The notes under the pieces: model-generated
Seen by the model: only the letters and a program-made list of their open reading frames with translations
Told to the model about the DNA's origin: nothing
Database searches by the model: none
Program-made: the position numbers and the translations under genes
Assembly (NCBI GenBank): GCA_030040965.1
Contig: JASHOT010000193.1
Coordinates: forward strand, 1-47,430
Direction: 5' to 3'
Length of the DNA stretch: 47,430 nucleotides
Source of the DNA: Candidatus Sulfotelmatobacter sp.
GTDB lineage: Bacteria > Acidobacteriota > Terriglobia > Terriglobales > Acidobacteriaceae
Shown here: positions 10,754-30,844 of the stretch, piece after piece
How the letters are laid out: every line of letters starts with the position of its first letter
Numbering within the stretch: position 1 is the first letter of the stretch

Positions 10754-10810
10754 GATTGAGCCACAGAGTTAATGCACGATCTATTGGACGAAGGTGTCGA
10801 TCAATACCTT
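10754..10810 (-). promoter_or_regulatory. 30-bp operator plus -10-like element upstream of ytcA-mdtN-mdtO
   Basis: The site occupies 10781-10810. Read on minus it is AAGGTATTGATCGACACC then TTCGTCCAATAG. TCAATC at 10759-10754 begins 21 nt beyond the site and is preceded by GGC. One base of the inverted repeat differs from the best copies. The predicted transcription start is near 10747. It is one of a pair of divergent copies between the efflux operons. Confidence 0.7.
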
Positions 10811-10858
10811 CGCATAAGGCGGCTGCCGCACCGAGTCAAGACGATCTCCACAGATACT

Positions 10859-10915
10859 TTGGGATCGATCAATACGTTTGTTCAATAGATTCACTTTGGC
10901 AGCTCTGCCTTAATT
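10859..10915 (+). promoter_or_regulatory. 30-bp operator plus -10-like element upstream of mdtP-like gene
   Basis: The site occupies 10859-10888: TTGGGATCGATCAATAC then GTTTGTTCAATAG. TTAATT at 10910-10915 begins 21 nt later, preceded by GCC. The predicted transcription start is close to 10922, almost at the ATG at 10925. The message could therefore be leaderless, or the true start could be a downstream codon. It is the mirror partner of 10781-10810, with 48 nt between the two sites. Confidence 0.7.
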
Positions 10916-10924
10916 ACATTTGGA

Positions 10925-12415
10925 ATGAACTGGAAGAAGTGTCGATTGATCGAATACAGCCCATCGGCGAATGTTCTGTTCGTGTCCCTGCTTCTCGCCT
11001 TCTGCGCGGCACAAGCTCTGGGGCAATGTGCCGGCAAGGTGTCTTCTCCGGCAGCCGCCGCCGACTGCGCCGCTCGCGAAACTCCGCGCGAGGGGACAGC
11101 GATTCTCGACCCAGCTCACCCGTACAGTCTGGCTGAGCTGATCGACGTTGCCGAGCACCACAACCCCAACACGCGCGTGATCTGGGAACGCGCAAAGCAG
11201 AAGGCGCGCGAGCTTGGAGTAGCTAAGAGTGCTTATTATCCCGAGTTAGAAGGTCTGGCTGTTTTCGGTGACGAGAGATTGATAAATCCGTTCCCGGAGC
11301 CGCTCGCTCCTCGCGGTTATGTCATGGTTGAGTTACCCGTCGTCAAGCCAGAAGTCACACTTCAATATCTGATCTTTGACTTTGGCAAACGTGAGGCCAG
11401 AGTGGACTCCGCCAAACAGGAGAAGTTCGTTGCCGGTGCGGACGTCATTCAGGTAAATCAAGCGCTGGCGTTTCGTGTCGCCAGTGCGTATTACCAACTG
11501 GTGACTGCACAGGAGAGATTGGAGGCCACTCAGGACACGCTACGAACCGCACAAACCACGCAGGATGCGGCTGAAAATCGACTGAACAATGGGCTTGCAA
11601 CTCTTCCTGATGTTCTTAACGCCCGGGCCGAAACGGCGCAGGCTGCGTTCGACGAGGAATCCGCGGATGGGGACGAAAAGATCGCGCGCGTGGCGCTGAC
11701 GGAAGCGGTGGGGGCAGATCCATCTCCCAATGTATTGATTGACAGCCAGAGGAGCGCGCCACTGCCGGAGAAGCTCACGATGTCCATCGATGCGCTGATC
11801 GATCGCGCGACGAAGGATCGTCCCGACCTTATGGCGCAAACGCTGCGTATCCGCTCCGAGGAGGCTCGCATTCGTGCGGCCCGGGCGGAGTATAAGCCCC
11901 AGATTGTTCTCTCGGGATCGGTGGCGCAGACTTCCCTTTGGCCGACGGCAGATTACGGCGTGCTCGGTTCAGCGAGCGAACCGACCTGGTCGGTGGCGCT
12001 CGGCATACGCTGGCGCATCTTTGACGGAGGTGCCCGCAAGAACGAGCTGTTGATCGCCGAATCGAAACGCCGGGAAGCAGGGGATGAACTTACGGCGAAA
12101 CGTGATGAGACCACGCGCGAGGTCTGGACCGCGTACATCGCATTCCGGACCGCGTTGCGAAAGCACGACGCCGCCGTGGCACTTCTCGAGTCCGCCAACG
12201 CCTCTTACTCGGCATCGCTCGAGGCCTATAAATATGGAGTCAAAAATCTGGTCGATGTTGTCACCGCGGAGGATCAACTAGCCAAGGCTCGACTGTCGAG
12301 TGTCTCTGCGCGATCGGAATTATTTCTGCAAGCGGTCAACCTTGAATTCGCGACAGGAAACCTGCTGAGGAATCAGCCACCAGCAACAAGACTCAAATCG
12401 CAGGACGCACATTAA
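10925..12415 (+). CDS. mdtP: TolC-like outer-membrane efflux channel (MdtP-like)
   Basis: 496-aa outer-membrane factor. After a signal sequence (core VLFVSLLLAFCAAQALG, cleavage near residue 35) come two OEP repeats. The first is around residues 60-260 (YSLAELIDVAEHHNPNTRV is the usual opening). The second is around 285-480, with WSVALGIRWRIFDGGARKN and a closing YKYGVKNLVDVVTAEDQL. The long Ala/Glu/Gln helices fit the trans-periplasmic tunnel. It is divergent from the ytcA-mdtN-mdtO operon and probably supplies its exit duct. The ATG at 10925 has no Shine-Dalgarno, and a predicted promoter ends just before it, so the start is uncertain by a few codons. Confidence 0.9.
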   Translation: MNWKKCRLIEYSPSANVLFVSLLLAFCAAQALGQCAGKVSSPAAAADCAARETPREGTAILDPAHPYSLAELIDVAEHHNPNTRVIWERAKQKARELGVAKSAYYPELEGLAVFGDERLINPFPEPLAPRGYVMVELPVVKPEVTLQYLIFDFGKREARVDSAKQEKFVAGADVIQVNQALAFRVASAYYQLVTAQERLEATQDTLRTAQTTQDAAENRLNNGLATLPDVLNARAETAQAAFDEESADGDEKIARVALTEAVGADPSPNVLIDSQRSAPLPEKLTMSIDALIDRATKDRPDLMAQTLRIRSEEARIRAARAEYKPQIVLSGSVAQTSLWPTADYGVLGSASEPTWSVALGIRWRIFDGGARKNELLIAESKRREAGDELTAKRDETTREVWTAYIAFRTALRKHDAAVALLESANASYSASLEAYKYGVKNLVDVVTAEDQLAKARLSSVSARSELFLQAVNLEFATGNLLRNQPPATRLKSQDAH

Positions 12416-12452
12416 TGATTTCGCCCAGCGCAATAAGGGATTTTGGCGACCT

Positions 12453-13181
12453 TTACTTCTCTGGGCCGAAGACCTCGCGTAACGCGACATTGAGGTCATC
12501 GAGGGCCCGGGCGCAGTCGCCTGTAAAGCTAGAGCCATGCATGATGGCGAGCGTTGTGGGCTTTAGATCGGCGAGCTCTTTCAAGTTCTGCGCAGTGAGG
12601 GGCGCGTAGGGCATATACTCCGCGAGAATGCCGACCTGATATCCTTCAGCGCATGACGCGAGCGGCCCACGACATCGGCACGCGTCAGGGGTTCGACGTC
12701 GCCAGCCTGATGGAACAGGTCCGAACAGAGCAGCGTTCTCTGCGTTTCTTCGAAGAGGACGCCGGCGTCCCAGCCGTGGGGCAGATGGGGAGTCCGGCAG
12801 TAGCGAAAGCGGTATCTCCCTGTCGCAAAGGTCCCGCCGTCAGCAAGAGCGCGTGACTCTCGGCCAATGAAGTCGTTCACGCAGACGAGCGCACCAACCT
12901 GGCTGCAGATCACATCGGCTTTGGGCGCTGCAGCCAGCCATTCGTTGAGCGACCCGCATTCGTCTGACTCAAAATGACTAAAGCTAATGTGGCGCAGCTC
13001 GGAAAGGTTGATAAGTTTCGAAACGGCTTCGCGAACTTTCCGCGCACATTCCGCGCAGCCCGGTGTGGAATAGCAGCGGTTCATCGTCTTTCACCAAAAA
13101 GTGGTTGAACTGCAAATTGTGTCGTTGAACAAAAATCGAGATGCGATAGATATCCGGAGCGATTTCCGTGGTGAGCGCCAT
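12453..13181 (-). pseudogene. MBL-fold diiron flavoprotein-like protein, broken by two frameshifts
   Basis: Three consecutive minus-strand frames together give one metallo-beta-lactamase-fold protein. Frame A from ATG 13181 reads MALTTEIAPDIYRISIFVQ to FHTGLRG (about 13050). Frame B carries [19 protein letters not shown] and [13 protein letters not shown] to SRHALK (about 12645). Frame C continues [17 protein letters not shown] and LAIMHGSSFTGDCARAL to the TAA at 12453. HxExDE matches the metal motif of oxygen- or NO-reducing diiron MBL proteins, but the flavodoxin domain of true flavodiiron proteins is absent. The remaining protein looks well conserved, so either recent inactivation or two sequence indels is possible. 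It follows the MOSC fusion by 18 nt in the same probable operon. Confidence 0.75.
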
Positions 13182-13199
13182 GCCAGTCTCTCCTCGTCC

Positions 13200-14957
13200 T
13201 CAAAGATCAAGAATCACGTTCGCGTCCGGCTGTGAGCAGCACAGCAGAACGTTTCCCGGCGCCGGCCTTTCCAGCGGTTCCGGGTTGCAACTGATCGATC
13301 CAGCAATCAGTCCCGTCATGCAGGTGTGGCACACTCCAGTGCGGCACGACCATCTGACCGGAACGTCGCATGCTTCCGCCAGTTCCAACAAGCTTTGATA
13401 TTTGGGGTCCCATGCGGCCGTGATCCCGCTGCGCGCGAATGAGACTGGCGGGCCGGATCCACGGGGGCCATTGGGCAGATGTGGCGTATGAACAACGCGC
13501 GCCATGCCGGGTGTAATGGCGTCAAGCGTACCGAAGATTTCCGCGTGCACATTCGCGGCGGGCGCACCCCACTTTCGCAGCCCATCGCGCATGTTCTTTA
13601 AAAACGAAGGTGGGCCACACAAGTAGAACTCGCTCTCGCGCGATACTCCAATCTTCTCCACCAAAGTTGCGTCGATGTGTCCTGACGCATCAAAGTCCAA
13701 TCCAAGCCGATCGGTAGCCACGGGTTGGCTGTACACGATGTAGCTTCGTGCGTGAGAGAGTTGTTTCAGCAATGCACGCGATTCTTTCGCGAATGGATGG
13801 TCGGCGCCATTGCGCGCCGCGTAGATCCACCAGATCTCTCGTTCGGATTTTTCCGCGGCGAGTGCGTGCAGCATCGACATCACGGGCGTTGCGCCTACTC
13901 CGGCGCTCAGCAAAACCACGGGACTCGCGCCGGGATGCACCGTAAAGCTTCCCCGAGGCGCACTCACATCCAATGCATCGCCTTCTCGCACGCGGTTGCA
14001 CAGAAACGAACTTGCAGCGCCATTCGATTCGCTCTTGACCGTGATGCGGAAATGATCTACCACCGGCAGATCAGACAAAGAATAGCTGCGAAGAACCGGA
14101 GGCTTGTCCGCATCGACCAGCAACCGCAAGACGACGAATTGACCTGCGTGGAAGACGGGAAGAGGCTGACCATCGATCGGCGCGAGAATGAAGGAAGTCA
14201 CGCTGTCGCTTTCCTTACGGATCTGCGTAACTCGCAATTGTCTAAATCCGGGCCATGCTGGAGCTTGCTCCTCATATGCGAGTCCCGGATTCCCCGCTGC
14301 CGCGTTGAAAGTCGATTCCTGCCCGAGCATCGCGCGGAACGAATCCTGCCAACCCTTGCTCAGCGCAGGAATCCGCAGCGCGCGTTGCAGTTGATCATGA
14401 GAGTGTCCCGGCAAGTACAGCAGCGCATCAATCTCGGCGACGGTGATCCGCTCGGGGCCGTCAGCGACTTTTATGATGTCATCGCCTCCGCCAACTTCTC
14501 CTTCCTGCAACACACGAAAATAGAATCCGGGTCGGTGATGTGCAACGAGCAGGGCTGCCATCCGAGGTTCGTTCATACGCATGCCAACGCGATAGCACGT
14601 CACGCGCGGCTGGGTCACTTCAAATAGCGCGTCACCAATCCGGTATCGATCACCGATGCAAACCTCGTCATCCGCAAGCCCGTCGACCGTGAAGTTTTCG
14701 CCGAACTGACCAAAAGTAAAATCATTCCGCCCCAGAAAGCGCTCCCAATAGCGATAGGAGTCCATCTGGTAAACAAAGACCGCGCGGTGCTCCCCTCCAT
14801 GACCCGCGAGATCACCTTGCCCGTCACCATCGATGTTGAGCTTGCGCACGATGCTCCGCCCGGCAACGGAAGATTTCCAAACCGCCGTTCGGACAGTCTG
14901 GCCGTTCCAGGTTACGTCGCGAGGAAGGCCGACATTCACTGAGAGCAGGCGAGCCAT
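13200..14957 (-). CDS. MOSC domain/flavin reductase/2Fe-2S ferredoxin fusion
   Basis: 585-aa three-part protein. Residues 1-225 form a YiiM-type MOSC domain plus 3-alpha domain, with the conserved Cys in QPRVTCYRVGMR near 143 and the GQFGENFTVDGL motif. Residues about 235-480 form a ferredoxin-NADP reductase-like module: FAD site RSYSLS, then a pyridine nucleotide fold with LLSAGVGATPVMSML and FYLCGPPSFL. Residues about 500-585 are a plant-type 2Fe-2S ferredoxin with CRTGVCHTC and a fourth Cys in LLCCSQP. The fusion would deliver NAD(P)H electrons through FAD and Fe-S to the MOSC site. Homologues of the MOSC part reduce N-hydroxylated compounds; the substrate here is unknown. The stop is 18 nt before the MBL-fold gene and the start 21 nt after the redoxin gene. 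Confidence 0.88.
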   Translation of the reverse strand: MARLLSVNVGLPRDVTWNGQTVRTAVWKSSVAGRSIVRKLNIDGDGQGDLAGHGGEHRAVFVYQMDSYRYWERFLGRNDFTFGQFGENFTVDGLADDEVCIGDRYRIGDALFEVTQPRVTCYRVGMRMNEPRMAALLVAHHRPGFYFRVLQEGEVGGGDDIIKVADGPERITVAEIDALLYLPGHSHDQLQRALRIPALSKGWQDSFRAMLGQESTFNAAAGNPGLAYEEQAPAWPGFRQLRVTQIRKESDSVTSFILAPIDGQPLPVFHAGQFVVLRLLVDADKPPVLRSYSLSDLPVVDHFRITVKSESNGAASSFLCNRVREGDALDVSAPRGSFTVHPGASPVVLLSAGVGATPVMSMLHALAAEKSEREIWWIYAARNGADHPFAKESRALLKQLSHARSYIVYSQPVATDRLGLDFDASGHIDATLVEKIGVSRESEFYLCGPPSFLKNMRDGLRKWGAPAANVHAEIFGTLDAITPGMARVVHTPHLPNGPRGSGPPVSFARSGITAAWDPKYQSLLELAEACDVPVRWSCRTGVCHTCMTGLIAGSISCNPEPLERPAPGNVLLCCSQPDANVILDL

Positions 14958-14978: not shown

Positions 14979-15585
14979 TTACATCTTCCGTCCAGGAGAA
15001 GCCGCTTCCCAGCTGGCCTGCTTGTTCCGTCCGTGGAAAGGCGAGAGGTTGCCTGCATTCCATGCCTCGCGGAGCCCCGGGCGGCTCAAATCCCAGTCTG
15101 GGCGGATTTCGCTGGTCACGGCGCGCAGGTCGTGCCAAAGATCTACGACCGACGGGCGGCCCCAGAACCAATAGCCGTTGTAAATCCTGTAGATCACGAG
15201 GCCCGGCTTGAAAACGAGCGTGTGCGGAATCATCGGGTTGTGCTCGGGGTCGGTGTACTCCTGGATATCGAGATCCTGCTGAACGATCCGGCCAGGATCG
15301 GACAGAAAGGTCCACTCCGCTCCCACTGATGCTCGAAATTCCTGGAGCATGTGGTGGTCGTCGGTGGCGATGGTGACGATTTGTGTGTATGCGACAGCGA
15401 TCTTCGGGTAGAACGCAGCGAGTTCCAGATGCTGCTGGTGTTCCTTGGGACAGTAGTGGCCGCGGGCAAGGGTGAGGATCAGCGGATCGTCGCCCTGCAA
15501 CTCACTGAGCTTGCGCAGCTCGTTCGTGTGATCGGGCAGTTCGAAGTCAGGAAAAACCTTTCCGGGCACAATATCAGAACGCATA
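14979..15585 (-). CDS. Redoxin (AhpC/TSA-like peroxiredoxin family)
   Basis: 201-aa thioredoxin-fold protein with a single peroxidatic-type Cys in LARGHYCPKEHQQH near residue 48, where typical peroxiredoxins have TxxC. Other fold markers are GKVFPDFELPDH near the N-terminus and IPHTLVFKPG in the second half. The C-terminal region (IYNGYWFWGRPSVVDLWHDL) is typical of a redoxin subfamily found beside oxidoreductases. ATG 15585 is preferred because GGAGG lies 10 nt upstream; an upstream in-frame ATG at 15617 lacks one. It probably shares a transcript with the YceI-like gene 76 nt upstream and the MOSC fusion downstream. A peroxide-reducing role is inferred from the family. Confidence 0.8.
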
Positions 15586-15661
15586 ATGGAGCCACCTCCG
15601 ATCGCACTCGCGCACATCGTCTACACGATGCAGCCGGAGAATATCTTTCTCCTCAGTTGTC

Positions 15662-16552
15662 CTAGCTCCCCGCCACTGATTGATCAGAACTTCTGGGCAA
15701 CAGACGCATATGAATCAGGATGTTCAGACGCTCTCCAACTATCGCATTGAAATCCGACGCCTCGGCGGCGCCAAGGTCTTCGGCGTTCGCCGCATGCGGC
15801 GGCTGCGGGAGCGAAGGCGCTTGCATCATCGTTCCCGTGCATGGAATCCCGTGATAGTCCTCACCCACCTGAGTCGGCTGACAGGTCACATCCTGAATCA
15901 CCGGCGGCCAGTACGTGGCCGTAACCGCCTTCAGCAACTGAGGAAAGTCTTCGCGGAATACTTTTGTCGAGGCCGACTCCTGGATCGAGCCGTCGTGTGT
16001 TTTTCCATCACTGCCCGGAGCATCGAAAACCAGCGTGACTTCATGCGTAACCCGGTGGATGACCGGGGGGCCGTACACCGGGCCGGCGTAGCCTTCTGTG
16101 GGATCGGCCTGCACACTGCGGTCGACTCGAGTTAGGGCCATCGTACCGGTGGTTTGCAGCCGGCCGTCCGCTGTCCGCGTCACTCCCTTGGAGTGAAAGC
16201 ACACCAGGGTGTGGTTGGCTACATTGGCCAACCAAAGACTCTTGAATTTTCCGTCTTCGGCGATGGGCGGCAGCATGGAAGTCGCCGGATAAAAGCGCAA
16301 GTCGACACTCGATCTCGCGGGGTCGGCGTCGTCAAGGATCAATGTGCCATTCACTCGAGCAAACCCCAAGGTGATGTCGATCTTTGTTTTGCCGAAGTCC
16401 GTGGTTGCATCGGTGATGAGTTGCGCATCGGAATGACGGGTATCGACCTGCCAAGAACCGGCCAAGGACGGAGGAGACGTGGAAACCCCCAGGGTAACAG
16501 CACCGAGAACGAGGATGGTTGCGATTGCGAGTAAAGCCACTGGCTTAGACAT
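15662..16552 (-). CDS. YceI-family periplasmic protein with extended C-terminus
   Basis: 296 aa from ATG 16552, which has AGGAGG 8 nt upstream; a longer ORF back to 16627 lacks a Shine-Dalgarno. Residues 1-30 are a signal peptide (KPVALLAIATILVLGAVTLG). SWQVDTRHSDAQLITDAT is the YceI opening, and residues about 33-205 cover the lipocalin-like barrel that binds isoprenoid-type lipids in characterised members. The C-terminal ~90 residues contain a Pro-rich stretch and have no match I recognise. A strong 30-bp operator lies 76 nt upstream of the start, so the gene probably heads an operon with the redoxin, MOSC fusion and MBL-fold genes. Confidence 0.75.
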   Translation of the reverse strand: MSKPVALLAIATILVLGAVTLGVSTSPPSLAGSWQVDTRHSDAQLITDATTDFGKTKIDITLGFARVNGTLILDDADPARSSVDLRFYPATSMLPPIAEDGKFKSLWLANVANHTLVCFHSKGVTRTADGRLQTTGTMALTRVDRSVQADPTEGYAGPVYGPPVIHRVTHEVTLVFDAPGSDGKTHDGSIQESASTKVFREDFPQLLKAVTATYWPPVIQDVTCQPTQVGEDYHGIPCTGTMMQAPSLPQPPHAANAEDLGAAEASDFNAIVGERLNILIHMRLLPRSSDQSVAGS

Positions 16553-16600: not shown

Positions 16601-16657
16601 GATTAAGCCAAAGGCGAAAGGTTGCATCTATTGGACGAACGTATCGAGCAATACCAA
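16601..16657 (-). promoter_or_regulatory. 30-bp operator plus -10-like element upstream of yceI-like operon
   Basis: The site at 16628-16657 reads on minus TTGGTATTGCTCGATAC then GTTCGTCCAATAG. TTAATC at 16606-16601 begins 21 nt beyond it and is preceded by GGC. The predicted transcription start is near 16594, giving a leader of about 40 nt with a good ribosome site. This is one of the clearest copies. Confidence 0.75.
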
Positions 16658-16738: not shown

Positions 16739-17500
16739 CTAGGCGGCGACGAACTGCTGGCCGCCGTCAACGTCATAGGTTGCCCCTGTGAGCGCCGTGT
16801 TGGCCATAATGTGCACCGCCAGTGCAGCAACATCTGCTGGTTGAACAACCCGCCGAATGGGAAGTTTGGCGCGAAGCTGGCTGCGGCGGTTCTCGAGTTC
16901 ATCACCCAAAAGTGATGCCGACAACTGTGTGTCGACGAATCCGGCGGCGATCAGGTTCACGCGCACTGGTGCCAGCTCAAGGGCGAGATTGGCCGTGAGG
17001 GCAGGCAGTGCTGCGGTGACGGTCGATAGGATTCCAAGACCCATGGCCGGTCGGCGAGCGCCGGTGCCGCCCATGAATATCAAAGTTCCGCCGGCTTTTA
17101 CCTTGTCAGCGGCGTGCAGGGCGACTTCGATGAAGAGCGAAAAAAGCTCCTCCAGCGCACGGCGCGCTTGGGCGAAATCGAGATCGATGAGGCGGCCGTA
17201 ATAAGGCCGGCCGGCCGTCACCATGATGTGATCGACCGGGGTCGGCAAGTCGCGGAAAAACTGCGCGAGCTGCGCAGAATCCGCAGCGTCGAAGGCGGCG
17301 GTACTCAGCGCATCGACCTCGCTTGCGGCGCGTTGGAGGTGCTCAGGACTGCGGCCGGTGAGGATCAGCTTTGCTCCTTCCGCGGTTGCACGTCGCGCCG
17401 TCTCGAGTCCGATGCCCGCGCTTCCACCGATCACAACGACGGTTTGACCCAGGAGTTGTGGCTCATGCTGAATGCGATAAGGGGTGATTGCACTGCTCAT
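16739..17500 (-). CDS. Short-chain dehydrogenase/reductase lacking the YxxxK catalytic pair
   Basis: 253-aa SDR. The cofactor motif GGSAGIGLETARR sits near residues 26-38 and the family C-terminus is present (ALTGATYDVDGGQQF). Where classical SDRs have Ser-Tyr-x3-Lys, this protein reads LGILSTVTAALPALTANLAL, so the catalytic Tyr and Lys are missing although the Ser region is kept. ATG 17500 is chosen over a GTG at 17521 because GGAG lies 5 nt upstream. It is transcribed alone, divergent from the MEDS/kinase operon, with a strong 30-bp operator 52 nt upstream. A related SDR subgroup with this substitution may use a different mechanism or act by binding; the reaction is unknown. Confidence 0.85.
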   Translation of the reverse strand: MSSAITPYRIQHEPQLLGQTVVVIGGSAGIGLETARRATAEGAKLILTGRSPEHLQRAASEVDALSTAAFDAADSAQLAQFFRDLPTPVDHIMVTAGRPYYGRLIDLDFAQARRALEELFSLFIEVALHAADKVKAGGTLIFMGGTGARRPAMGLGILSTVTAALPALTANLALELAPVRVNLIAAGFVDTQLSASLLGDELENRRSQLRAKLPIRRVVQPADVAALAVHIMANTALTGATYDVDGGQQFVAA

Positions 17501-17523: not shown

Positions 17524-17581
17524 GATTAGGCCAGCAGCACGACGAACGAATCTATTGGACGAACGTATTGATCGATACCAA
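17524..17581 (-). promoter_or_regulatory. 30-bp operator plus -10-like element upstream of SDR
   Basis: The site at 17552-17581 reads on minus TTGGTATCGATCAATAC then GTTCGTCCAATAG, very close to the consensus. CTAATC at 17529-17524 begins 22 nt beyond it, preceded by GGC. The predicted transcription start is near 17517, giving a short leader. It lies in the divergent region with the MEDS/kinase operon, but its orientation points to the SDR. Confidence 0.78.
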
Positions 17582-18333: not shown

Positions 18334-20823
18334 ATGGAAGTGCAACCTGAACACTCCGGAGAGATCAAGCGCCTTCGGCGGTGCATCAACGATCTCGTGA
18401 GCCTCCTCGCTCTTTCGGCCATCTGGAGTGGTGGCGATCCATCCCAGGTTCTCCATACCCTGGTCGACGCCCTCATGCGCATGCTCAACCTTGACCTCGT
18501 CTGTGTGCGGGCGACAAATCCCGGCGGCGGGGCGCCCATTGAAATCGTCCGGATTGCGCAATTGCAAGGGCCGACGCCACCGCCGCGCGAGATCTTCGAA
18601 ACGCTCAGTCATTCGCTGCAAGACAGCTCACGGAAATTGCCTCCTTCCCTACGAAGTCTTATTGGCAAGGTAGACGTTTCGATCGTGGCTGTGCCACTCG
18701 GGCTGCACGGCGAGTTCGGCGTAATCATCGCAGCCGCGCAACGAACAGATTTTCCACAGCAAACGGAGACACTTCTCCTGAACGTAGCAGCCAATCAGGC
18801 ATTCATTGGGCTGCAGGAGGCACGGCTCCGGAGTCGGCAGAAGCGTATCTCCGACGAACTCGATCAGCGGGTCACGCAACGAACTGCGGAGCTCGGTGCG
18901 GCGAATGCAGAGCTGCAACTCCAGGTTGGACTGCTGCAGGATCTGCCTGTATCCGCGTGGACGCTCAAACCTGACGGGACACCGGATTTCGTGAATCGGG
19001 TTTGGCTTGAGTTCTCCGGCCAGACACTCGAGTTCGTCCGGTCGCATCCCGAGGCCTGGATGACTGCGGTCCACCCTGACGATCGCGAGGCGGCATCGAG
19101 GGTGTTTTGGGAAGGCGTACGCTCGGGGCAGGGTTTTGCGATCGAAACCCGGTCTCTCCGCGCAAGGGATGGCGTCTATCGCTGGCACCTGCAGCAAGCC
19201 GTGGCCTTGCGCGATGCGGAAGGGAAAGTCCTCAAATTTGTCGGTACGACCACCGACATTGACAACCAGAAACGCGCAGAAGAACCCCTCCGCGCACGCG
19301 AACTTAACTTACGTCGCGTTATCGATGCGATTCCGACGCTTGCGTGGTGCAACCTCCCCGACGGACCCAATGAATTCCTCAATAAAGGCTGGCACGAATA
19401 CACGGGTCTCTCTCCTGAAGAGTCGCACGGTTGGGGCTGGCAGACGGCGTTCCATCCCGACGACTTGCCCCCATTAATGGAGAAGTGGAAGAAGATGTTG
19501 GTCTCAGGAGAACCAGACGAAATCGAGGCGCGCCTTCGCCGCCATGATGGCGTATATCGCTGGTTTCTCATTCGCGCTCAGGCCCTCCGCGATGAGTCGG
19601 GCAAGATCCTTAGGTGGTACGGCACGAGCACAGATATTGAGGATAGAAAACGCGCGGAGCAGGCTCTGGCTGCAAGCGAGCGAAATCTCCGTCTCATTAT
19701 CAACACCATGCCAGCGCTGGCATGGTCTGCCCGGCCAGATGGGAGCGCCGAGTTTCTCGGCCAGCGGTGGCTGAATTACACGGGCATGACTGCGGCTGAA
19801 GCCCAGGATTGGGGATGGGTAAAAGCCTTTCATCCCGGCGACGTCGATCGCATAATTGTCTATTGGCGTTCCATTCTTGTTAGCGGCGAACCCGGCGAGA
19901 TCGAAGCAAGGCTTCGGCAGTTCGACGGCACCTATAGGTGGTTCCTGATTCGTGCAAATCCGCTGCGCGACGAGTCGGGCGAAATCGTCAAATGGTATGG
20001 AACCAACACGGATATTGATGACCGCAAGCGAGCAGAAGAGCAATTGCGCAACGCTCAGTCGGAGTTGGCAAGAGTGATGCGAGTCATGACGATGGGACAG
20101 CTGACCGCTTCGATCGCACACGAGGTGAATCAACCGCTTTCCGGCATCCTCACCAACGCCAGTACATGCCTGCGGATGCTGGATGCAAATCCTCCGAACT
20201 TGGAAGGCGCTAGAGAGACCGCACGACGGACGATTCGTGATGGCCATCGGGCCTCAGATGTAATCGCGCGATTGCGAACGCTTTATAGCAAAAAAGAGCC
20301 GGCCGTAGAACCGATGGACCTGAACGAGGTGGCACGAGAGGTGACGGCGCTCTCGGCGACTGAGATCCAGAGAAACGGCGTGATCCTGCGGCAAGAATTT
20401 GCAGATGATTTGCCGGCGGCACTCGGTGATCGCGTCCAGCTTCAGCAGGTCATCTTGAACCTGCTTCGAAACGCTACGGACGCAATGAGTGCAATCAACG
20501 ATCGCCCCCGAGAATTGCTGGTTAGGACCGAGCTGGACGAAGGGAATCGGGTCCGGCTAAGCGTGAAAGATTCCGGAGTCGGTCTTACGCCTCAGGCAGC
20601 GGACAAGATCTTTGAAGCGTTTTACACGACCAAAACCGACGGTATGGGAGTCGGACTCTCCATCAGCCGCTCGATTGTTGAGGCTCATCAAGGACGCCTT
20701 TGGGCGACACGGAACGATGGGCCGGGATCGACATTTTCGTTTTCGATCCCGTGTGTGCGCGAGGGTTTGGCCCAGGCGGAAATCCGTGTCAATCATGCTG
20801 ATCCGTCGACGGACGCCGCTTGA
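18334..20823 (+). CDS. Soluble hybrid-free sensor histidine kinase with GAF and three PAS domains
   Basis: 829 aa with no transmembrane helix. Residues about 1-165 are GAF-like and about 165-190 a coiled coil. Three PAS/PAC units follow, near 199-315, 329-445 and 454-575. HisKA lies near 588-655 with the phospho-His in SIAHEVNQPLSG. The ATPase has an N-box (LLRNATDAM), DSGVGL and MGVGLSISRSIVE. PAS2 and PAS3 are recent tandem relatives: both read EIEARLR..DG.YRWFLIRA and DESG. The kinase core is of the FixL/DctB-like group. No heme-binding His can be assigned with confidence. It is probably the partner of the two regulators downstream, with the MEDS protein as a possible ligand input. Confidence 0.92.
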   Translation: MEVQPEHSGEIKRLRRCINDLVSLLALSAIWSGGDPSQVLHTLVDALMRMLNLDLVCVRATNPGGGAPIEIVRIAQLQGPTPPPREIFETLSHSLQDSSRKLPPSLRSLIGKVDVSIVAVPLGLHGEFGVIIAAAQRTDFPQQTETLLLNVAANQAFIGLQEARLRSRQKRISDELDQRVTQRTAELGAANAELQLQVGLLQDLPVSAWTLKPDGTPDFVNRVWLEFSGQTLEFVRSHPEAWMTAVHPDDREAASRVFWEGVRSGQGFAIETRSLRARDGVYRWHLQQAVALRDAEGKVLKFVGTTTDIDNQKRAEEPLRARELNLRRVIDAIPTLAWCNLPDGPNEFLNKGWHEYTGLSPEESHGWGWQTAFHPDDLPPLMEKWKKMLVSGEPDEIEARLRRHDGVYRWFLIRAQALRDESGKILRWYGTSTDIEDRKRAEQALAASERNLRLIINTMPALAWSARPDGSAEFLGQRWLNYTGMTAAEAQDWGWVKAFHPGDVDRIIVYWRSILVSGEPGEIEARLRQFDGTYRWFLIRANPLRDESGEIVKWYGTNTDIDDRKRAEEQLRNAQSELARVMRVMTMGQLTASIAHEVNQPLSGILTNASTCLRMLDANPPNLEGARETARRTIRDGHRASDVIARLRTLYSKKEPAVEPMDLNEVAREVTALSATEIQRNGVILRQEFADDLPAALGDRVQLQQVILNLLRNATDAMSAINDRPRELLVRTELDEGNRVRLSVKDSGVGLTPQAADKIFEAFYTTKTDGMGVGLSISRSIVEAHQGRLWATRNDGPGSTFSFSIPCVREGLAQAEIRVNHADPSTDAA

Positions 20824-21332: not shown

Positions 21333-22013
21333 ATGAATTCAGCGCGCACATTTGGTCATGAAGTGCGGACATTGGCAACGCCGAGTGCCGTGCCTGTCGT
21401 GTTCATCGTTGACGATGACGTGTCGGTGCGCGAGTCCGTGGAACTCCTGGTCCGAAACGAAAACTGGAAGCCCGAACCATTCGCGTCTGCACAGGAGTTC
21501 CTCAGTCACCCCAGAACACGTGTCCCGAGCTGCTTGGTCCTTGATCTATCACTTCCAGGACAGAATGGTCTTGAACTGCAGAAGCAGCTTTCTCTGCAGC
21601 ACATCGACATGCCGATCATCTTCATCACCGGCTACGGCGATGTGCCTAAGTCCGTACAAGCTATGAAAGCTGGCGCTCTCGAATTCCTAACGAAGCCGCT
21701 CGATTACAACGCCTTGGTAAACGCTATCCGAAAAGCCCTGGAGCGAAGTCGTCTAGCTCTCGCCCAGGATGCGGAGATGCAAGAACTCCGTACCCGCTAC
21801 GCCTTGCTCACTTCCAGGGAACACCAGGTTATGACGTTGGTTGTGTCCGGCCTGCTGAATAAACAAGTCGGTGGTGAACTCGGCATCAGCGAGATTACGG
21901 TCAAAGCGCATCGAAGGCAGGTCATGCAAAAGATGAAAGCGAATTCTCTAGCCGATTTGGTCAAGATGGCGTCCAAGCTTCGGCCGGGACGTCCGGCAAT
22001 CGACTTGACCTGA
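21333..22013 (+). CDS. FixJ-type response regulator with LuxR helix-turn-helix
   Basis: 226 aa. Receiver domain about 20-140, with FIVDDDVSVRESV, the phospho-Asp in LVLDLSLPGQNG and TKPLDYNAL. A linker helix follows, then a LuxR/FixJ DNA-binding domain about 150-215 (LTSREHQVMTLVVSGLLNKQ and LGISEITVKAHRRQVMQKM). GGGGGA lies a few nt before the ATG. FixJ relatives bind short inverted repeats and activate from sites overlapping -35, which is the geometry of the 30-bp sites around this gene. It is therefore the leading candidate to bind them; that link is inference from position and geometry. Confidence 0.92.
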   Translation: MNSARTFGHEVRTLATPSAVPVVFIVDDDVSVRESVELLVRNENWKPEPFASAQEFLSHPRTRVPSCLVLDLSLPGQNGLELQKQLSLQHIDMPIIFITGYGDVPKSVQAMKAGALEFLTKPLDYNALVNAIRKALERSRLALAQDAEMQELRTRYALLTSREHQVMTLVVSGLLNKQVGGELGISEITVKAHRRQVMQKMKANSLADLVKMASKLRPGRPAIDLT

Positions 22014-22041: not shown

Positions 22042-22164
22042 ATGCAAGGATTGAAAACCGTCTCTCTCGCCACACTCGTAAAACTAGCTTCCAAGCTGCA
22101 CCCGCCTTGCCAAAATTTTGCTCTTGCTCCTCACCCAATAATTTTGATCATACAAAGGTATTGA
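22042..22164 (+). pseudogene. Remnant of a second FixJ/LuxR C-terminal tail
   Basis: Right after the FixJ-type gene, frame 1 reads MQGLKTVSLATLVKLASKLHP, then an unrelated tail to TGA at 22164. It aligns without gaps to the end of the FixJ-type protein, MQKMKANSLADLVKMASKLRP, with 14 of 21 residues identical. The DNA is about 63% identical by hand count over 63 nt. No receiver or upstream HTH helices are present. It looks like the leftover 3' end of a lost paralogue, and its last codons run into the carbonic anhydrase operator at 22155-22184. Confidence 0.55.
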
Positions 22165-22211
22165 ACGATACCTTCGTCCAATAGGTTTCTTCCGTTCCTC
22201 GTGATGTGATC
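22155..22211 (+). promoter_or_regulatory. 30-bp operator plus -10-like element upstream of carbonic anhydrase operon
   Basis: The site at 22155-22184 is AAGGTATTGAACGATACC then TTCGTCCAATAG. GTGATC at 22206-22211 begins 21 nt later and fits the consensus only moderately. The predicted transcription start is near 22218, leaving a leader of about 100 nt before the chosen GTG start at 22322. Confidence 0.7.
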
Positions 22212-22321
22212 GCGAATGTGCATTGAGTATCGAAAGACTCGACACCGCAATGGGTATGCGAGATCAGGTAACTATGCCATTGGGATGGCGTCAAACTTCA
22301 CCCACCATCATGGAGGCTACG

Positions 22322-22843
22322 GTGAGTATTATCGATAAGGCACTAGAGGCAAACCGCAATTACGCAAAGAACTACAATCCAACGCTGGGAAAGCGTCCCG
22401 CCCCCAAAGTCGCAGTTGTAACCTGCATGGATCCACGGCTCTCCGACCTCACTGGAATCCTGGGGCTCCCGCAGGCCGATCTCGACGTTATTCGAACCGG
22501 CGGGCCTGCGGTAACTGAAGATGTTCTTGGCGAACTTGTCGTTTCTACCCGTGTGCTCGGAACCCGGGAGATACTGCTTCTCAACCACACCGGCTGCGGG
22601 TTCACCACATTCACCGATGACGAGCTGAACGCCAAACTGAGCGCTTCTACCGGAGATGCTTCACCGGCTCCAATGCGTTTCTTCTCCTACAAAGACCCCG
22701 AGGAAAATACCCGCGAACAGATCAAAAAAGTCAGATCGCATCCATGGATCGCCAAAGATGTCCCCGTGCGAGGCGTCATTTTCGACGTAGAGACCGGCAG
22801 ATTAAGTGAGGTCAAAGCGCTCGAACAGGAGCAGGCTGCCTGA
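22322..22843 (+). CDS. Beta-class carbonic anhydrase
   Basis: 173-aa enzyme interconverting CO2 and bicarbonate. Zinc ligands and active-site dyad are visible as CMDPRL (C-x-D-x-R) near residue 34 and HTGC (H-x2-C) near residue 88. The compact form and the context RTGGPAVTEDVLGELVVSTR resemble the Rv1284-type group. The best start is GTG 22322, with GGAGG at 22312-22316 and 5-nt spacing. In-frame ATGs at 22274 and 22310 would lengthen it slightly, and 22310 has no Shine-Dalgarno. It is first in an operon with the cytochrome P460, transketolase and aldolase genes and lies behind a strong 30-bp operator. Confidence 0.92.
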   Translation: MSIIDKALEANRNYAKNYNPTLGKRPAPKVAVVTCMDPRLSDLTGILGLPQADLDVIRTGGPAVTEDVLGELVVSTRVLGTREILLLNHTGCGFTTFTDDELNAKLSASTGDASPAPMRFFSYKDPEENTREQIKKVRSHPWIAKDVPVRGVIFDVETGRLSEVKALEQEQAA

Positions 22844-22915
22844 CTCGCGATCACTTTGCTCGTTCACTGGTCGGACGAGTTTTGCTTCCTTTCAGGGAGA
22901 ATCAAGGGATGCCCG

Positions 22916-23899
22916 ATGGCTATTAAAGAGTCGATGCTTGGCGTGATCGGTGTGATGCTGTGTGCTTTGCTTGCGGGTTGCACGGCGGGCAAAGCTCCTT
23001 CCCGGGGGGAAACAGGCCTGGCCAATGCCGCAAAAGACGTCACCATTCCATTGGAGGCAGGAAAGAAGAGGAACCCGCTGCCTGAGACGGATGAAATCGT
23101 AAGCCAGGGCCAGGAAGTGTTTCTTGGGTCTTGCGCCCAATGCCACGGTGCGGATGCGCGCGGGGACTCTAACATCGGTCCCAACATGGACCCGCCTGCC
23201 ATGGACCTGAGCTCACCCCACGTGCAGCACTGGAGCGACGCGGAACTGTTCTGGATCATACAGAACGGAGTGCGCCTCACAGGCATGCCTGCCTGGCGGT
23301 CGAGCATCTCCGATAGCGACACCTGGAAGCTTGTGCGTTTTATTCACAATCTTCCGCGCCTCGACGCGTCCTCCAGCTCCACCGCAGTCGTGCCACAGGC
23401 ACAATCCACCATTTCTACCGAGGACAAGTATGCCCTCAAAGTGCCAAATGGCCTTGCGTTCTCAGAGTTCCGGGGATACGAAAGCTGGCCGGTGATCGCA
23501 ATTAGCCATAACGGAGAGAAACTCGCTGCGATCCTCGGAAACTCAGTGATGATCGGCGCCTATAAGGCGGGCACTCCCGGGAACGGCAAGCTCTTTCCGG
23601 ACGGCGCCAAGATGGCGAAGGTGCATTGGAACGCGAAAGTGAATCCCGGCGAGCCCGGTGCGCCGACGTTGCCAGGGACACAGCACGACGTTGATCTCAT
23701 GGTGAAGGATAGCAAGAGATTCGTGGACAGCGGAGGATGGGGCTACGGCGCCTTCGAGTACGACGCGGCGTCCAACTCCTTCACGCCCGCCACCTTGAAA
23801 GACAAGCCACCGCAGGGAAACGACGCGAAGTGCGGGTTCGCATGTCACGCGGCAGTAAAGACAAAAGATTACGTTTTCACGGATTACGGGCACAGGTGA
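22916..23899 (+). CDS. Cytochrome c/cytochrome P460 fusion lipoprotein
   Basis: 327 aa from ATG 22916, with AGGGA 6-7 nt upstream. Lipobox LLAGC near residue 22 predicts an exported lipoprotein. Domain 1 (about 60-145) is a class I cytochrome c: [12 protein letters not shown], then GMPAW supplying the axial Met. Domain 2 (about 170-327) is P460-like ([40 protein letters not shown]) and ends [20 protein letters not shown]. The second heme motif is C-x3-C-H rather than C-x2-C-H. P460 proteins oxidise hydroxylamine or bind NO, so a role in nitrogen-oxide chemistry is plausible but unproven. It follows the carbonic anhydrase by 72 nt. Confidence 0.88.
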
Positions 23900-23955
23900 A
23901 GCGGCGAGAGCTTCCCAATCGCAGGAAATCAGCTGGAAAAAAGAGGAGCATTCCA

Positions 23956-25983
23956 ATGAATCAGATAGCCAGCCATGATCTTGATCAGCGTTGCATCAAC
24001 ACCGCGCGGGTCCTCTCGATCGACATGAGCGAGAAAGCGCACTCTGGTCACCCCGGATTGCCACTCGGCGCCGCCCCAATGGCTTACACACTCTGGGACC
24101 GGATTTTGCGACATAATCCCGCGAATCCTCGATGGGCCAATCGCGACCGTTTCGTCCTTTCCGCTGGTCATGGGTGCGAATTGCTTTACTCGTTGCTTCA
24201 TTTGACCGGTTACAAAATCAGCATCGATGACCTTCAGAATTTTCGCCAGTGGGGGAGCAAGACAACCGGCCATCCGGAATACGACCCGGATCTGGGGATA
24301 GAAGCGACCACCGGTCCTCTGGGACAGGGCATCGCTATGGCAGTCGGAATGGCCGCCGCGGAAGCCCATCTCGCCGCTCGTTTTAATCGGGAGGGGTTCC
24401 CGGTAGTTGATCATTTTACGTTTGTGCTGGCGGGCGACGGAGACCTAATGGAGGGGATTTCGTCGGAAGCAGCTTCTCTGGCTGGAACGCTGCAGTTGGG
24501 AAAGCTCATTGTTCTTTACGACGACAATCATGTATCGCTAGATGCGACCACCGACCATGTTTTCACCGAGGATCGCTGCGGCCGCTTCCGGGCGTTCGGA
24601 TGGCATGTCATTTCCGTCCCGGACGGAAATGACACCGAAGCCATCGAACGCGCCATTCACGAGGCTAAGGCTGAAACGCAAAAGCCATCGCTGATCGCCG
24701 TACGAACACACATCGGATACGGGAGCCCGCTGCACGACTCGCCGAAAGTTCACGGCGAACCCATGGGACCTGAGAACGTGCGTGCGACAAAGCAGTTCTT
24801 CGGATGGGACTTGCCACCATTCACCGTTCCCGCTGACGTCGAGACTCATTATCGTCAGGCCATTCCGCGCGGAACCGCACTCGAAACGGAGTGGACAGCG
24901 CTGCTGGGGCGTTACTCTGAGAAGTACCCCGATCTGAGCCGGCAACTCAAAGACATGATCGACGGAGTCGTCCCTGCGAATTGGGAATCCGGCCTTCCAA
25001 GCTTTTCGCCTAGTGAAGGAGCTATATCGACCCGCGACGCTTCGGGCAAGACGATGAATGCAATCGCGGCCGCACTGCCAGGTTTTATTGGCGGCTCTGC
25101 CGACCTTGCCGGTTCAAACCGCACGACGCTGAAGGGTCTAGGAGATTTCGGCTTCGTCGACAACCAGGGCAGGAATATTCACTTCGGTGTTCGCGAGCAT
25201 GCAATGGCAGCCATGGTGAATGGAATCGCGTGTCACGGTGGCCTCATCCCATTCGGCGCAACATTTTTTAATTTTTCCGATTACCTGCGACCTTCTTTGC
25301 GCCTTGCGGCCCTGATGGGAGTTCACAGCACTTTCGTCTTCACCCATGACAGCATTGGACTCGGCCAGGACGGACCGACACATCAACCCATTGAACACCT
25401 GACCAGTTTACGAGCAATGCCGGGGCTGACGGTGTTTCGTCCGGCAGACGGCAATGAAACCGCGGCGGCCTGGCGCGTGGCGATCGGGCTCCGCGGCCCG
25501 TCGGTGCTCGTCTTGACTCGTCAAGCCTTGCCCGTGCTGGATCCGAAACAGTACTCCGTCAGCGAGGGGGTTGCAAAGGGCGCTTATGTTCTCGTCGATG
25601 AGCCCCACCCCGACCTCGTACTCGTGGCAACCGGGTCCGAAGTCCAGCTGGCGCTGGAGGCGGGGCGTGTTCTGGCTAAATCAGGCGTAAGAACGCGTGT
25701 CATATCGATGCCTTCGTGGGAGCTGTTTGAAAAACAATCCGCCGAGTACAGGGATTCAGTTCTGCCCGTCAACGTCCCCACGCTGGCAATTGAGGCTGGC
25801 GCGACTCTTTGCTGGTACAAGTGGGTGGGTCGAACCGGCGATGTCATCGGGCTCGACCATTTCGGAGCGTCTGCACCCGGCGAAGTGGTAATGGATAAGC
25901 TCGGATTCAACGTCGATAACGTGGTCAAGCGTGCGCTGCGACTTGTACATCAGAAAATTGCGCCGGCCACCGCAGCAGCGTGA
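23956..25983 (+). CDS. tkt: Transketolase
   Basis: 675-aa thiamine diphosphate enzyme moving two-carbon ketol units between sugar phosphates. Motifs: [20 protein letters not shown] near residues 25-44, ThDP motif [19 protein letters not shown] near 161-179, [12 protein letters not shown], the pyrimidine-domain [13 protein letters not shown] and [20 protein letters not shown]. Length is normal. ATG 23956 has GAGGAG 8 nt upstream; a longer upstream reading only covers the end of the P460 gene in another frame. Co-location with the aldolase suggests a dedicated pentose-phosphate/glycolytic module in the regulon rather than the housekeeping copy, which is inference. Confidence 0.95.
24607..24633. 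repeat. Perfect inverted repeat with 13-bp arms inside tkt
   Basis: GTCATTTCCGTCC, one C, then its exact complement GGACGGAAATGAC. The repeat lies fully inside transketolase and encodes the normal segment [10 protein letters not shown]. It could form a strong hairpin in the mRNA. Confidence 0.6.
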
Positions 25984-26077
25984 CCCTGCGTCTAAGAAAA
26001 GTGTGAGTGGCTCTGAATGACCGTGCAGTTCTGGAGCAATATTGGTCGGCATCTGCGACACTGAAAGGAGTACCCTC

Positions 26078-26977
26078 ATGGACGCACTACGAAATGTTTT
26101 GACTCGTTTGCAACAAGAAGGCGCGGCGCTTGGCCATTTCAACGTTGCCGATCTGGTGCTGCTCAAGGCGGTTCTGGCAGCCGCGGTTGAGGTCGGAGTG
26201 CCGGTAATCGTTGGCGCGTCGGAAGGCGAACGAGACTTTTTTGGGACATATGAACTCGCAGCGCTTGTGAAAGTCATGCGCGAAGAATACGGCGTCCCAG
26301 TTTTCCTTAACGCAGATCATACCCACTCACGGGCAAAGGCAGAGGAAGCAGCGAGGGCACGATTCGATTCAGTCGTAATCGATTTCTCCGCGTTGCCCTT
26401 CGACCAGAACGTTTCTCGCACAAAAGAGACTGTCGAGGCCATTAAAGCAATCAACCCCGCAATCATCGCTGAGGGAGAGATAGGCAACATCGGAACCGGC
26501 TCCGAGATCCACGAAACCGTTAACAACGATTTCAGGAACCTGTCCACCCCCGACGAAGCTCGACAATTTGTTGACTCTACGAGGATCGACGTCCTTGCCC
26601 CGGCGGTCGGCAATATGCACGGCATGCTGGAAAGCATGGTCGAAGGCAAGAGCAAGAAGCGCCTGAATATCGAGAGAATCGCTCAGATCAAGAAGGCGGC
26701 CGGAGTCTTTCTCACTTTGCACGGTGGCTCGGGAACAGATGACGACGATTTCGTACATGCGATTGCTGCCGGAATCAACATCATCCACATCAATACCGAA
26801 TTGCGGGTCGCATGGCGCCAGTCCCTGCAGGGCAGCCTTACCACTCAGCCACGCGAAGTTGTGCCGTATAAGATCCTTCCGCCCGTCGTAGACGCGGTAA
26901 AGCAGGTCGTAAGTTCCCGGTTGAAACTGTTCAACACTCAACTGAAGTCCAACCGAATACATTCACTGGCTGGATGA
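26078..26977 (+). CDS. fba: Class II fructose/ketose-bisphosphate aldolase
   Basis: 299-aa zinc aldolase, cleaving or forming ketose-1,6-bisphosphates. It shows the class II pattern: GHFNVADLVLLKAVLAAA at the start, metal/catalytic NADHTHS near residue 84, AEGEIGNIGTG near 132, then GNMHGM and LHGGSGTDDDDF supplying further metal and phosphate ligands, ending IIHINTELR. Whether fructose- or tagatose-bisphosphate is preferred cannot be read. ATG 26078 has AAAGGAG 8 nt upstream. It is last in the carbonic anhydrase operon, 94 nt after transketolase, and converges with the 95-aa gene. Confidence 0.9.
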   Translation: MDALRNVLTRLQQEGAALGHFNVADLVLLKAVLAAAVEVGVPVIVGASEGERDFFGTYELAALVKVMREEYGVPVFLNADHTHSRAKAEEAARARFDSVVIDFSALPFDQNVSRTKETVEAIKAINPAIIAEGEIGNIGTGSEIHETVNNDFRNLSTPDEARQFVDSTRIDVLAPAVGNMHGMLESMVEGKSKKRLNIERIAQIKKAAGVFLTLHGGSGTDDDDFVHAIAAGINIIHINTELRVAWRQSLQGSLTTQPREVVPYKILPPVVDAVKQVVSSRLKLFNTQLKSNRIHSLAG

Positions 26978-29806: not shown

Positions 29807-29811
29807 AGGCA

Positions 29812-29868
29812 GATGATGCGGACTTCAAGGTGAAAGATCTATTGTACGTTGGTATTGATCTGTCATTC
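29812..29868 (-). promoter_or_regulatory. Weaker 30-bp operator plus -10-like element upstream of ldtD-mepK
   Basis: The site at 29839-29868 reads on minus GAATGACAGATCAATAC then CAACGTACAATAG. The right half matches the family well and the left arm of the inverted repeat is degraded. ATCATC at 29817-29812 begins 21 nt beyond it. Orientation and distance agree with the strong copies. Confidence 0.5.
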
Positions 29869-29992
29869 CTAGGTGCCCTGGCGAGGAATGGAGCATCCAA
29901 CACAACATTTAAAAGATGGACGAGAGCTCGGGCGATCTTGCCACGCGCCGCAGGATCAGGGGTAGACAAGACGGGAGTCAAAGAGAATCATC

Positions 29993-30763
29993 ATGAAAAT
30001 CGTTGTGATCGGCGGGACTGGACTCATCGGGTCAAAGCTCATCAACAAGCTTCGGGCACACGGGCACGAGGCAGTCGCGGCAGCACCCGGTACAGGGGTC
30101 AACGCCGTCACGGGCGAGGGACTGGCCGAAGTGCTGACAGGTGCCACGGTCGTCGTTGATGTATCAAACGCTCCACAGCGGGAGGACACCGCCGTGCTGA
30201 AGTTCTTCGCAACATCAACCCGGAACCTGCTCGACTCGGAACGGACAGCGGCAGTGCGACATCACGTTGTATTGTCCGTCGTGGGATCCGAGCGCCTGCT
30301 TGAGAGCGGTTACATCCGCGCAAAAATCGTTCAGGAAAATTTGATCAATGGGTCATCGATTCCTTATTCCATTGTCCGGGCGACTCAGTTTTACGAATCC
30401 TTGAAGGATATCGCCGATTTTTCCACAGACGGCAACAAGGTGCGCTTGCCATCTGCGCTCATTCAGCCGATCGCGGCTGACGATGTGGCGAGGGTTGTGG
30501 GCCAGATCGCGATCGGCCCACCGGCGAACGGCACAGTTGAAGTTGGAGGGCCGGAACGCTTTCGTCTCGATGAGCTCGTTAGGCAAGCTTTCGCCGCGTG
30601 GAAGGATCCGCGCGAAGTCGTCACGGACCCACACGGGCGTTACTACGACATCGATGTGAAGGAGCGAACACTGGTCCCCGAAGACAACGCGAGGCACGGA
30701 ACGATCCGGTTCGAGGAGTGGCTGGCTCAGCGCGCCGAACAGATACCCCAGTCCGCCGCATAG
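29993..30763 (+). CDS. NmrA-like NAD(P)-binding atypical SDR
   Basis: 256 aa. Rossmann motif VVIGGTGLIGSKLINKLR at residues 4-21, then VLSVVGSERLLESGYIRAK with the Tyr-x2-Lys-like element YIRAK. SIVRATQFYESLKDIADF is typical of the NmrA/ycf39-like group. No classical catalytic Ser-Tyr-Lys triad is obvious, so it may be a redox sensor or a quinone/NAD(P)H-binding regulator. It is divergent from ldtD. The ldtD operator lies in the shared 186-nt region but points away, and I see no clear promoter of its own. GAGA lies before the ATG. Confidence 0.82.
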   Translation: MKIVVIGGTGLIGSKLINKLRAHGHEAVAAAPGTGVNAVTGEGLAEVLTGATVVVDVSNAPQREDTAVLKFFATSTRNLLDSERTAAVRHHVVLSVVGSERLLESGYIRAKIVQENLINGSSIPYSIVRATQFYESLKDIADFSTDGNKVRLPSALIQPIAADDVARVVGQIAIGPPANGTVEVGGPERFRLDELVRQAFAAWKDPREVVTDPHGRYYDIDVKERTLVPEDNARHGTIRFEEWLAQRAEQIPQSAA

Positions 30764-30786
30764 GTAGACCTGCGTGGATTGATACA

Positions 30787-30844
30787 AAAAGCGTGGCCGA
30801 TACCATCGTTTAATTGTTTCCGGCGCCTGATTTGTGTTGTCATC
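30787..30844 (+). promoter_or_regulatory. Degenerate 30-bp operator and -10-like element upstream of glgP operon
   Basis: Only the right half of the site at 30787-30816 is good: GCCGATACCATCGTTTAATTG against GATACC-TTCGT-CCAATAG, about 19 of 30 positions matching the carbonic anhydrase copy. GTCATC at 30839-30844 begins 22 nt later. Orientation and distance agree with the family, but the left arm is missing. Confidence 0.35.

Follow-up and report, generated by a model that had tools for sequence, protein, structure and literature searches.

StyR, the response regulator of the StyR/StyS system for styrene catabolism in Pseudomonas, recognizes the site ATAAACCATGGTTTAT and serves one catabolic operon. 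Sites of NarL consist of two inverted heptamers with a 2-bp centre (7-2-7). According to the abstract of its description, the activating STY2 site of StyR lies at about −40 bp, and an excerpt of PMC2442086 states that TodT/TodS of toluene catabolism strongly resembles StyS/R and that TodT occupies three sites at one promoter together with IHF. Here, we describe a repeated operator, GGTATYGATCRATACC, in a stretch of 47,430 nucleotides from Candidatus Sulfotelmatobacter sp. (Acidobacteriota; contig JASHOT010000193.1), hereafter the window. Between its copies lies a cassette encoding a PAS histidine kinase, a receiver-only protein and a FixJ/LuxR-type response regulator (Table 1). The system appears to be a FixJ/StyR-like two-component regulon, and the sites are most probably read by this FixJ/StyR-type regulator.

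The regulator joins a receiver domain (PF00072) to a GerE (LuxR-type) helix-turn-helix domain (PF00196), stands beside a kinase gene and accompanies a common operator in front of its putative targets, the arrangement that marks FixJ/NarL-type regulons. Its best match in the PDB is 1yio (E = 1.9e-55), an entry entitled 'response regulatory protein', which we take to be StyR. The operator differs from the StyR site, and many dispersed units carry it instead of one operon; the genes concerned are also other than those under TodT. FixJ of the rhizobial FixJ/FixL system has the same domain order and belongs to the same family (5xso, E = 6.8e-39), but our regulator is not FixJ proper, as it scores 192.3 bits against a cut-off of 255 on the FixJ equivalog model (NCBIfam NF006900), and the kinase reaches 263 bits on the FixL model with a cut-off of 850. 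A simple hydropathy scan of the kinase detected at most one borderline hydrophobic stretch (approximately residues 115–135). The likeness to NarL sites lies in the two heptamers, the inverted repeat and the 2-bp centre, whereas the heptamer sequence is another, an asymmetric arm is added and some sites have a 1-bp centre. A search of the open-access literature by motif letters and related topics, with most subscription journals outside its scope, retrieved no description of the operator.

The repeated operator is real. All seven sequences that the initial annotation had taken for copies of it are present in the window, and five of them belong together. The pattern GTATYGATCRATACNTTCGTCCAATAG with up to three mismatches matched exactly these five strong sites and nothing in 100 dinucleotide shuffles; their operator scores range from 51.6 to 60.9 and their scores in a whole-genome profile search from 52.4 to 63.5 bits. 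The identity of the last 12 bases in four copies, claimed to go beyond chance, was confirmed: four copies contain the 12-mer TTCGTCCAATAG without mismatch, against a chance mean of 0.19 at one mismatch or fewer. The sixth site, upstream of glgP, has an operator score of 22.1; orthologous support was looked for and none was found, and it is a weak, possible member only. A strong site in a relative (L055:5533), first taken for the orthologous glgP site, heads a sigma54 activator gene instead. The seventh, assigned to ldtD (29839..29868, minus strand), was rejected, with an operator score of −5.3, no downstream box and no match in the profile search at E ≤ 10. In the window, the sites therefore precede five or six units and not, as had been stated, most transcription units over 20 kb. 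A known RNA element was also rejected, as no Rfam match reached the gathering score within 10000–31500.

The conserved unit proved longer than the 30 bp originally delimited. The palindrome GGTATYG-N2-CRATACC is followed by STTCGTCCAATAGATTC and then, at a near-constant distance, by a second conserved block, the −10-like box TTCTGGCYTAATC, which emerged from an alignment of the sites with their flanks. We aligned 58 sites found with operator patterns that make no use of the box and fix a 2-bp palindrome centre, after removal of four near-duplicate sites and one edge site; 57 of them have the 2-bp centre and none only the 1-bp centre. The consensus was CCnACTnATACnAAGGTATCGATCGATACCTTCGTCCAATAGATTCGTCTnCGCGCTTCTGGCnTAATCGC. 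The box stands at offset 61 or 62 in 54 of the 58 sites, its TAATC beginning 22–23 bp past the end of CAATAG, and 46 sites score at least 6 at the box position (shuffle mean 0.8, largest value 4). When the box was found de novo in the training halves of 50 random half-splits, its position in 1450 held-out tests was the modal one in 79% and one base further in 8.3%, compared with a uniform chance of approximately 2.6% over 38 positions. A box in 54 of 57 sites from 40 stretches picked by the profile is partly ascertained, since the profile rewards the box, and this count was not relied on. The proposed start codon of the short-chain dehydrogenase/reductase (SDR) gene lies 23 bases past the box, behind CGGAG, which leaves little room for another −10 element; we therefore read the box as a putative non-canonical −10, with the operator arm at the −35 place. 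The conserved AATAGATTC stands in place of a −35 hexamer, and no TTGACA-like element has been preserved.

The palindrome centre occurs in two lengths. Among the ten strong sites of the genome, six have a 2-bp and four a 1-bp centre, and the latter were missed by the first pattern for this reason. The 150 best profile matches (64 chosen sources) comprise 73 with only the 2-bp form, 43 with only the 1-bp form and 34 with neither or both. A second class of operator, its palindrome shorter by one base, was seen at L151:3243-3312, L061:7714-7788, L061:13009-13078 and L152:4881-4954, the four sites of the genome itself, and in the copies read on rhizobial and Cupriavidus plasmids (L130, L131, L132).

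In the assembly to which the window belongs (5.87 Mb, 437 contigs, 93.6% complete), the consensus of the initial annotation gave six matches, five of them in the window, and its reversed control none. A profile built from sequence only detected ten strong sites (E < 1e-8), five in the window and five elsewhere; the next matches were one palindrome read on the reverse strand (E = 0.0016) and, at E = 0.006, the glgP site. All ten strong sites head an open reading frame (ORF) in the right orientation, and no strong copy was found inside a gene or randomly oriented. Nine of the first ORFs have a Pfam match and one is unnamed. This ORF of about 96 residues (L061:7418-7708) clusters with ORFs behind sites in L056 and L209, and the longest member of the cluster has no Pfam match. 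A sigma54-type AAA+ activator stands behind a strong site in two genomes (L151:3377-4513, on C126 of the genome itself, and L055:5533-5697), hinting at a cascade.

Conservation upstream of orthologues, which had been proposed as a check, was evident for six genes. The site is kept before SDR (L102, L215, L224, L084), mdtP (L102, L212), ytcA (L102, L117/L212), yceI (L227), the sigma54 activator (L055) and carbonic anhydrase (L120, L055/L083, by profile L207, and the more distant L218, L205, L211 and L231). By score, yceI of L082 has no such site. Orthologues of the MOSC gene have no site directly upstream, as expected because they lie inside an operon. The consensus of the initial annotation matched in 10 of 100 family genomes, with a reversed control of zero in every row.

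Over 62 chosen loci and the window, 88 sites have an operator score of at least 24, and 79 of these a box score above 6. Behind the 86 sites with a combined score of at least 32, the largest clusters of downstream ORFs, named by the Pfam match of one representative each, were SDR (13), epoxide hydrolase (8), extracytoplasmic function (ECF) sigma factor (7), carbonic anhydrase (6), outer membrane efflux protein (5) and glyoxalase (4). OsmC, alcohol dehydrogenase, a metallo-beta-lactamase fold, aldo-keto reductase, cytochrome P460, DoxX and COX2 were also found downstream. The ECF sigma genes follow sites in seven loci (L050, L067, L201, L209, L210, L216, L238), which raises the possibility that the regulon of some relatives feeds into a second tier of regulation. 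Within L055:4826-5389, homologues of the aldolase and NAD-binding proteins appear only as short adjoining partial matches, which suggests a rearranged or decayed stretch in that metagenome-assembled genome.

Both presence and position of the sites track the regulator gene. Across 300 family genomes, the profile matched in 59 (at 1e-6), the regulator was found in 39 (at 1e-68) and both were present in 34. Only a few candidates in each genome were scored in the search for the regulator, so its absences are soft; profile searches over 40 genomes used stricter filters. Sites occur in 34 of 39 genomes with the regulator and in 25 of 261 others (Fisher p = 1.3e-23, kinship ignored), at a mean of 5.1 and 1.2 sites per genome, respectively, and 27 of the 28 genomes with three or more sites also have the regulator. 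Among the 150 sites listed, at least 82 lie on a contig with a listed regulator and at least 69 within 15 kb of its gene. This supports the FixJ-type protein, suggested by the initial annotation, as candidate reader of the operator. Genome scan, conservation before orthologues and genomic linkage agree with its further suggestion that the operator defines a regulon.

The recognition helix points in the same direction. Among 24 loci fetched by regulator similarity, the best-matching regulators read TVK[A/T]HR in 14 cases and V, I or F at the variable position in ten; a profile match (E < 1e-5) was found in 10 of the 14 former and none of the 10 latter loci (Fisher p = 5.8e-4, kinship ignored), the cut having been chosen after the matches were seen, with the match of L070 (13.8 bits, E = 0.011) scored as a miss. 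The V/I/F loci showed no profile match even at E = 1, and two of the four misses with TVK[A/T]HR are contigs of 11 and 4 kb. Loci L082–L129, picked by motif, are excluded from this count. The helix of the regulator reads ITVKAHR, that of 1yio VTVKVHR and that of FixJ (5xso) RTIEVYR. The variable position is presumably the one that contacts bases in NarL (Val189), for which no paper was found.

Several observations weigh against this assignment. By profile, no strong site precedes the cassette itself in the window. At the cut-offs used, 25 of 59 site-bearing genomes lack the regulator and 5 of 39 regulator genomes lack a site. When 13 of these site-bearing genomes were rechecked with all candidates scored, eight had no regulator at 1e-30; in the same recheck, G218 and G249 carry a cut or interrupted copy and three genomes have only proteins of 49–53% identity. 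The near-complete genomes G109 (L266) and G095 (L267) contain strong sites and no regulator match at 1e-30; their sites may be orphans or belong to a diverged regulator. No site was found before the SDR gene of L094 or the carbonic anhydrase genes of L057, L095 and L216. Finally, the box departs from the canonical −10, with a weak form at carbonic anhydrase and variation in G370 and Kribbella.

Taken together, we consider it probable that the regulator binds the repeat and activates about ten co-controlled units in the class II manner. Upon a signal, the kinase would phosphorylate the regulator, perhaps via the receiver-only protein in a phosphorelay. A regulator dimer would bind the heptamers GGTATYG and CRATACC, separated by a centre of 2 or 1 bp, and probably also contact the asymmetric STTCGTCCAATAG arm at the −35 place. 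The bound dimer would recruit RNA polymerase to a promoter that has a −10-like TAATC box and no −35 hexamer. Joint control would thereby extend to MdtNOP-type and EmrAB-like efflux, Mla genes, SDR and alcohol dehydrogenase, the YceI/peroxiredoxin/MOSC reductase unit, carbonic anhydrase with sugar-phosphate enzymes, the sigma54 activator and the unnamed ORF. Epoxide hydrolases, SDR, alcohol dehydrogenase, glyoxalase, OsmC, peroxiredoxin, efflux and Mla proteins may point to reactive or solvent-like compounds, and the signal might be reactive electrophile, solvent or oxidant stress. Our confidence in this explanation is slightly reduced by the comparison of ECF sigma factors, discussed below.

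The best of the alternatives, still unlikely, is that the same regulator represses from the same sites or acts in both ways, in the manner of StyR at the separate sites of a single promoter: in the excerpt of PMC2442086, phosphorylated StyR activates from STY2 and represses when STY1 is also bound. A protein bound to the operator, which overlaps the −35 place, could also block polymerase, but the conserved AATAGATTC there, with no TTGACA-like element, suits an activator-dependent promoter. We give somewhat less credit to another transcription factor binding the sites with the FixJ-type protein as a mere neighbour, an idea that draws on the genomes with sites and no detected regulator; the regulator is the recurring neighbour across phyla and the sites go with a residue of its recognition helix. 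Slightly less probable again is a promoter for an alternative sigma factor, with STTCGTCCAATAG as −35 and TGGCYTAATC as −10. The fixed spacing of arm and box would fit, as would the ECF sigma genes behind sites, and an ECF match at 1e-25, of widely varying closeness, was present in 36 of 36 genomes searched. A sigma factor, however, has no need of an upstream palindrome, the sites are tracked by the regulator, and the genome of the window, with its ten sites, yielded a single ECF match of moderate strength (E = 1.4e-35, 45%), on C162, a contig without strong sites; the query of this comparison was a single ECF protein, other sigma factors lying outside its reach. A dispersed mobile repeat (a miniature inverted-repeat transposable element or repetitive extragenic palindromic element), suggested by several similar copies in one genome, was rejected as highly improbable, as conservation is confined to operator and box in otherwise differing flanks and the genome scan placed every strong copy before an ORF in one orientation.

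The system reaches beyond the family. The exact degenerate operator pattern, which allows only the 2-bp centre and thus under-counts relatives with a 1-bp centre, occurs in 48 stretches from 84,980 species genomes, 44 of them with titles that we read as acidobacterial. One of the other four stretches (L107) nearly equals an acidobacterial one, and in our judgement L107 and L110 look like contamination. In Kribbella and Caballeronia, a site lies at most 140 bases from the end of a regulator match of 62–65% identity. A sample of the phylum gave matches at 1e-7 in 7 of 297 genomes, six from the same family as the window, counting its own genome, and one, G370, from a different family, with three sites near or around the cassette. 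Of 610 plasmid records with a regulator match, the four best were examined; sites are present on plasmids of S. fredii, M. ciceri and one Cupriavidus, the copies read having 1-bp centres, and the second Cupriavidus plasmid showed no site. In both rhizobia the kinase gene stands beside the regulator gene in the same gene order. Sites precede epoxide hydrolase genes in Acidobacteriota, and such genes also stand behind sites on both rhizobial plasmids, beside the same cassette; on that of S. fredii, where the matches are partial and without the box part of the profile, a site also precedes a VOC-GST-MsrB-MsrA run. There is about an even chance that a kinase–receiver–FixJ-type cassette with a distinct recognition helix (TVK[A/T]HR) has spread as a portable regulon among Acidobacteriota, rhizobia, Burkholderiales and an actinomycete, bringing along its promoter grammar (a palindrome centred on 2 or 1 bp, the arm at the −35 place and the −10-like box) and target genes that deal with epoxides, aldehydes and peroxides.

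Features of the window are compiled in Table 1. The longest-ORF starts of yceI (16627) and the SDR gene (17521) abut the site and lie 2 bases past the box, respectively, and are probably wrong; Shine-Dalgarno-like sequences precede the alternative starts at 16552 and 17500.

Table 1. Positions of the cassette, operators, boxes and genes in the window, and of strong sites on other contigs (C) of the genome
Feature	Position	Strand	Remark
Histidine kinase	18334..20823	+	PAS repeats, HisKA, HATPase_c
Receiver-only response regulator	20887..21300	+	
FixJ/StyR-type response regulator	21333..22013	+	putative operator binder; helix ISEITVKAHRRQVMQKM
Operator of ytcA-mdtNO	10781..10810	-	strong, 55.4 bits (profile)
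Operator of mdtP	10859..10888	+	strong, 52.5 bits (profile)
Operator of yceI-ahpC/TSA-MOSC run	16628..16657	-	strong, 60.1 bits (profile)
Operator of SDR gene	17552..17581	-	strong, 63.5 bits (profile)
Operator of carbonic anhydrase run	22155..22184	+	strong, 52.4 bits (profile)
Possible operator of glgP	30787..30816	+	weak, 18.5 bits, partial match, E 0.006
-10-like box of ytcA-mdtNO	10754..10766	-	CTGTGGCTCAATC
-10-like box of mdtP	10903..10915	+	CTCTGCCTTAATT
-10-like box of yceI run	16601..16613	-	CTTTGGCTTAATC
-10-like box of SDR gene	17524..17536	-	TGCTGGCCTAATC
-10-like box of carbonic anhydrase run	22199..22211	+	TCGTGATGTGATC, weaker
glgP box	30832..30844	+	TTGTGTTGTCATC, beside weak glgP operator
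ytcA	10377..10748	-	start uncertain
mdtN-like membrane fusion protein	9099..10376	-	
mdtO-like FUSC permease	6938..9097	-	
mdtP-like outer membrane efflux protein	10925..12415	+	
YceI-like protein	15662..16552	-	proposed start
AhpC/TSA-redoxin protein	14979..15617	-	
MOSC-flavin-ferredoxin reductase	13200..14957	-	
SDR	16739..17500	-	proposed start
Carbonic anhydrase (start uncertain), cytochrome P460, transketolase, class II aldolase	22223..26977	+	presumably one run
Site before sigma54 activator	C126:3243		strong, 1-bp centre
Site before unnamed ORF of ~96 aa	C37:7345		strong
Site before outer-membrane/HlyD/MFS pump (EmrAB-like)	C37:7714		strong, 1-bp centre
Site before zinc alcohol dehydrogenase	C37:13009		strong, 1-bp centre
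Site before MlaE-ABC-MlaD (Mla genes)	C87:4881		strong, 1-bp centre

To our knowledge, regulons have been little studied in Acidobacteriota. For members of this widespread soil phylum, the analysis defines a regulon, including its likely regulator, the exact operator and the layout of the promoters, and a loose set of efflux and oxidoreductase genes becomes one testable response. A named record, Granulicella mallensis X5P3 (L113), has cassette and sites, which makes the regulon testable in a named strain. The recognition helix offers a residue-level hypothesis for shifts in the DNA specificity of FixJ-type regulators. Regulator, sites and targets are kept together in several phyla, and the portable regulon, if true, would amount to a stress response transferred as a ready-wired circuit.

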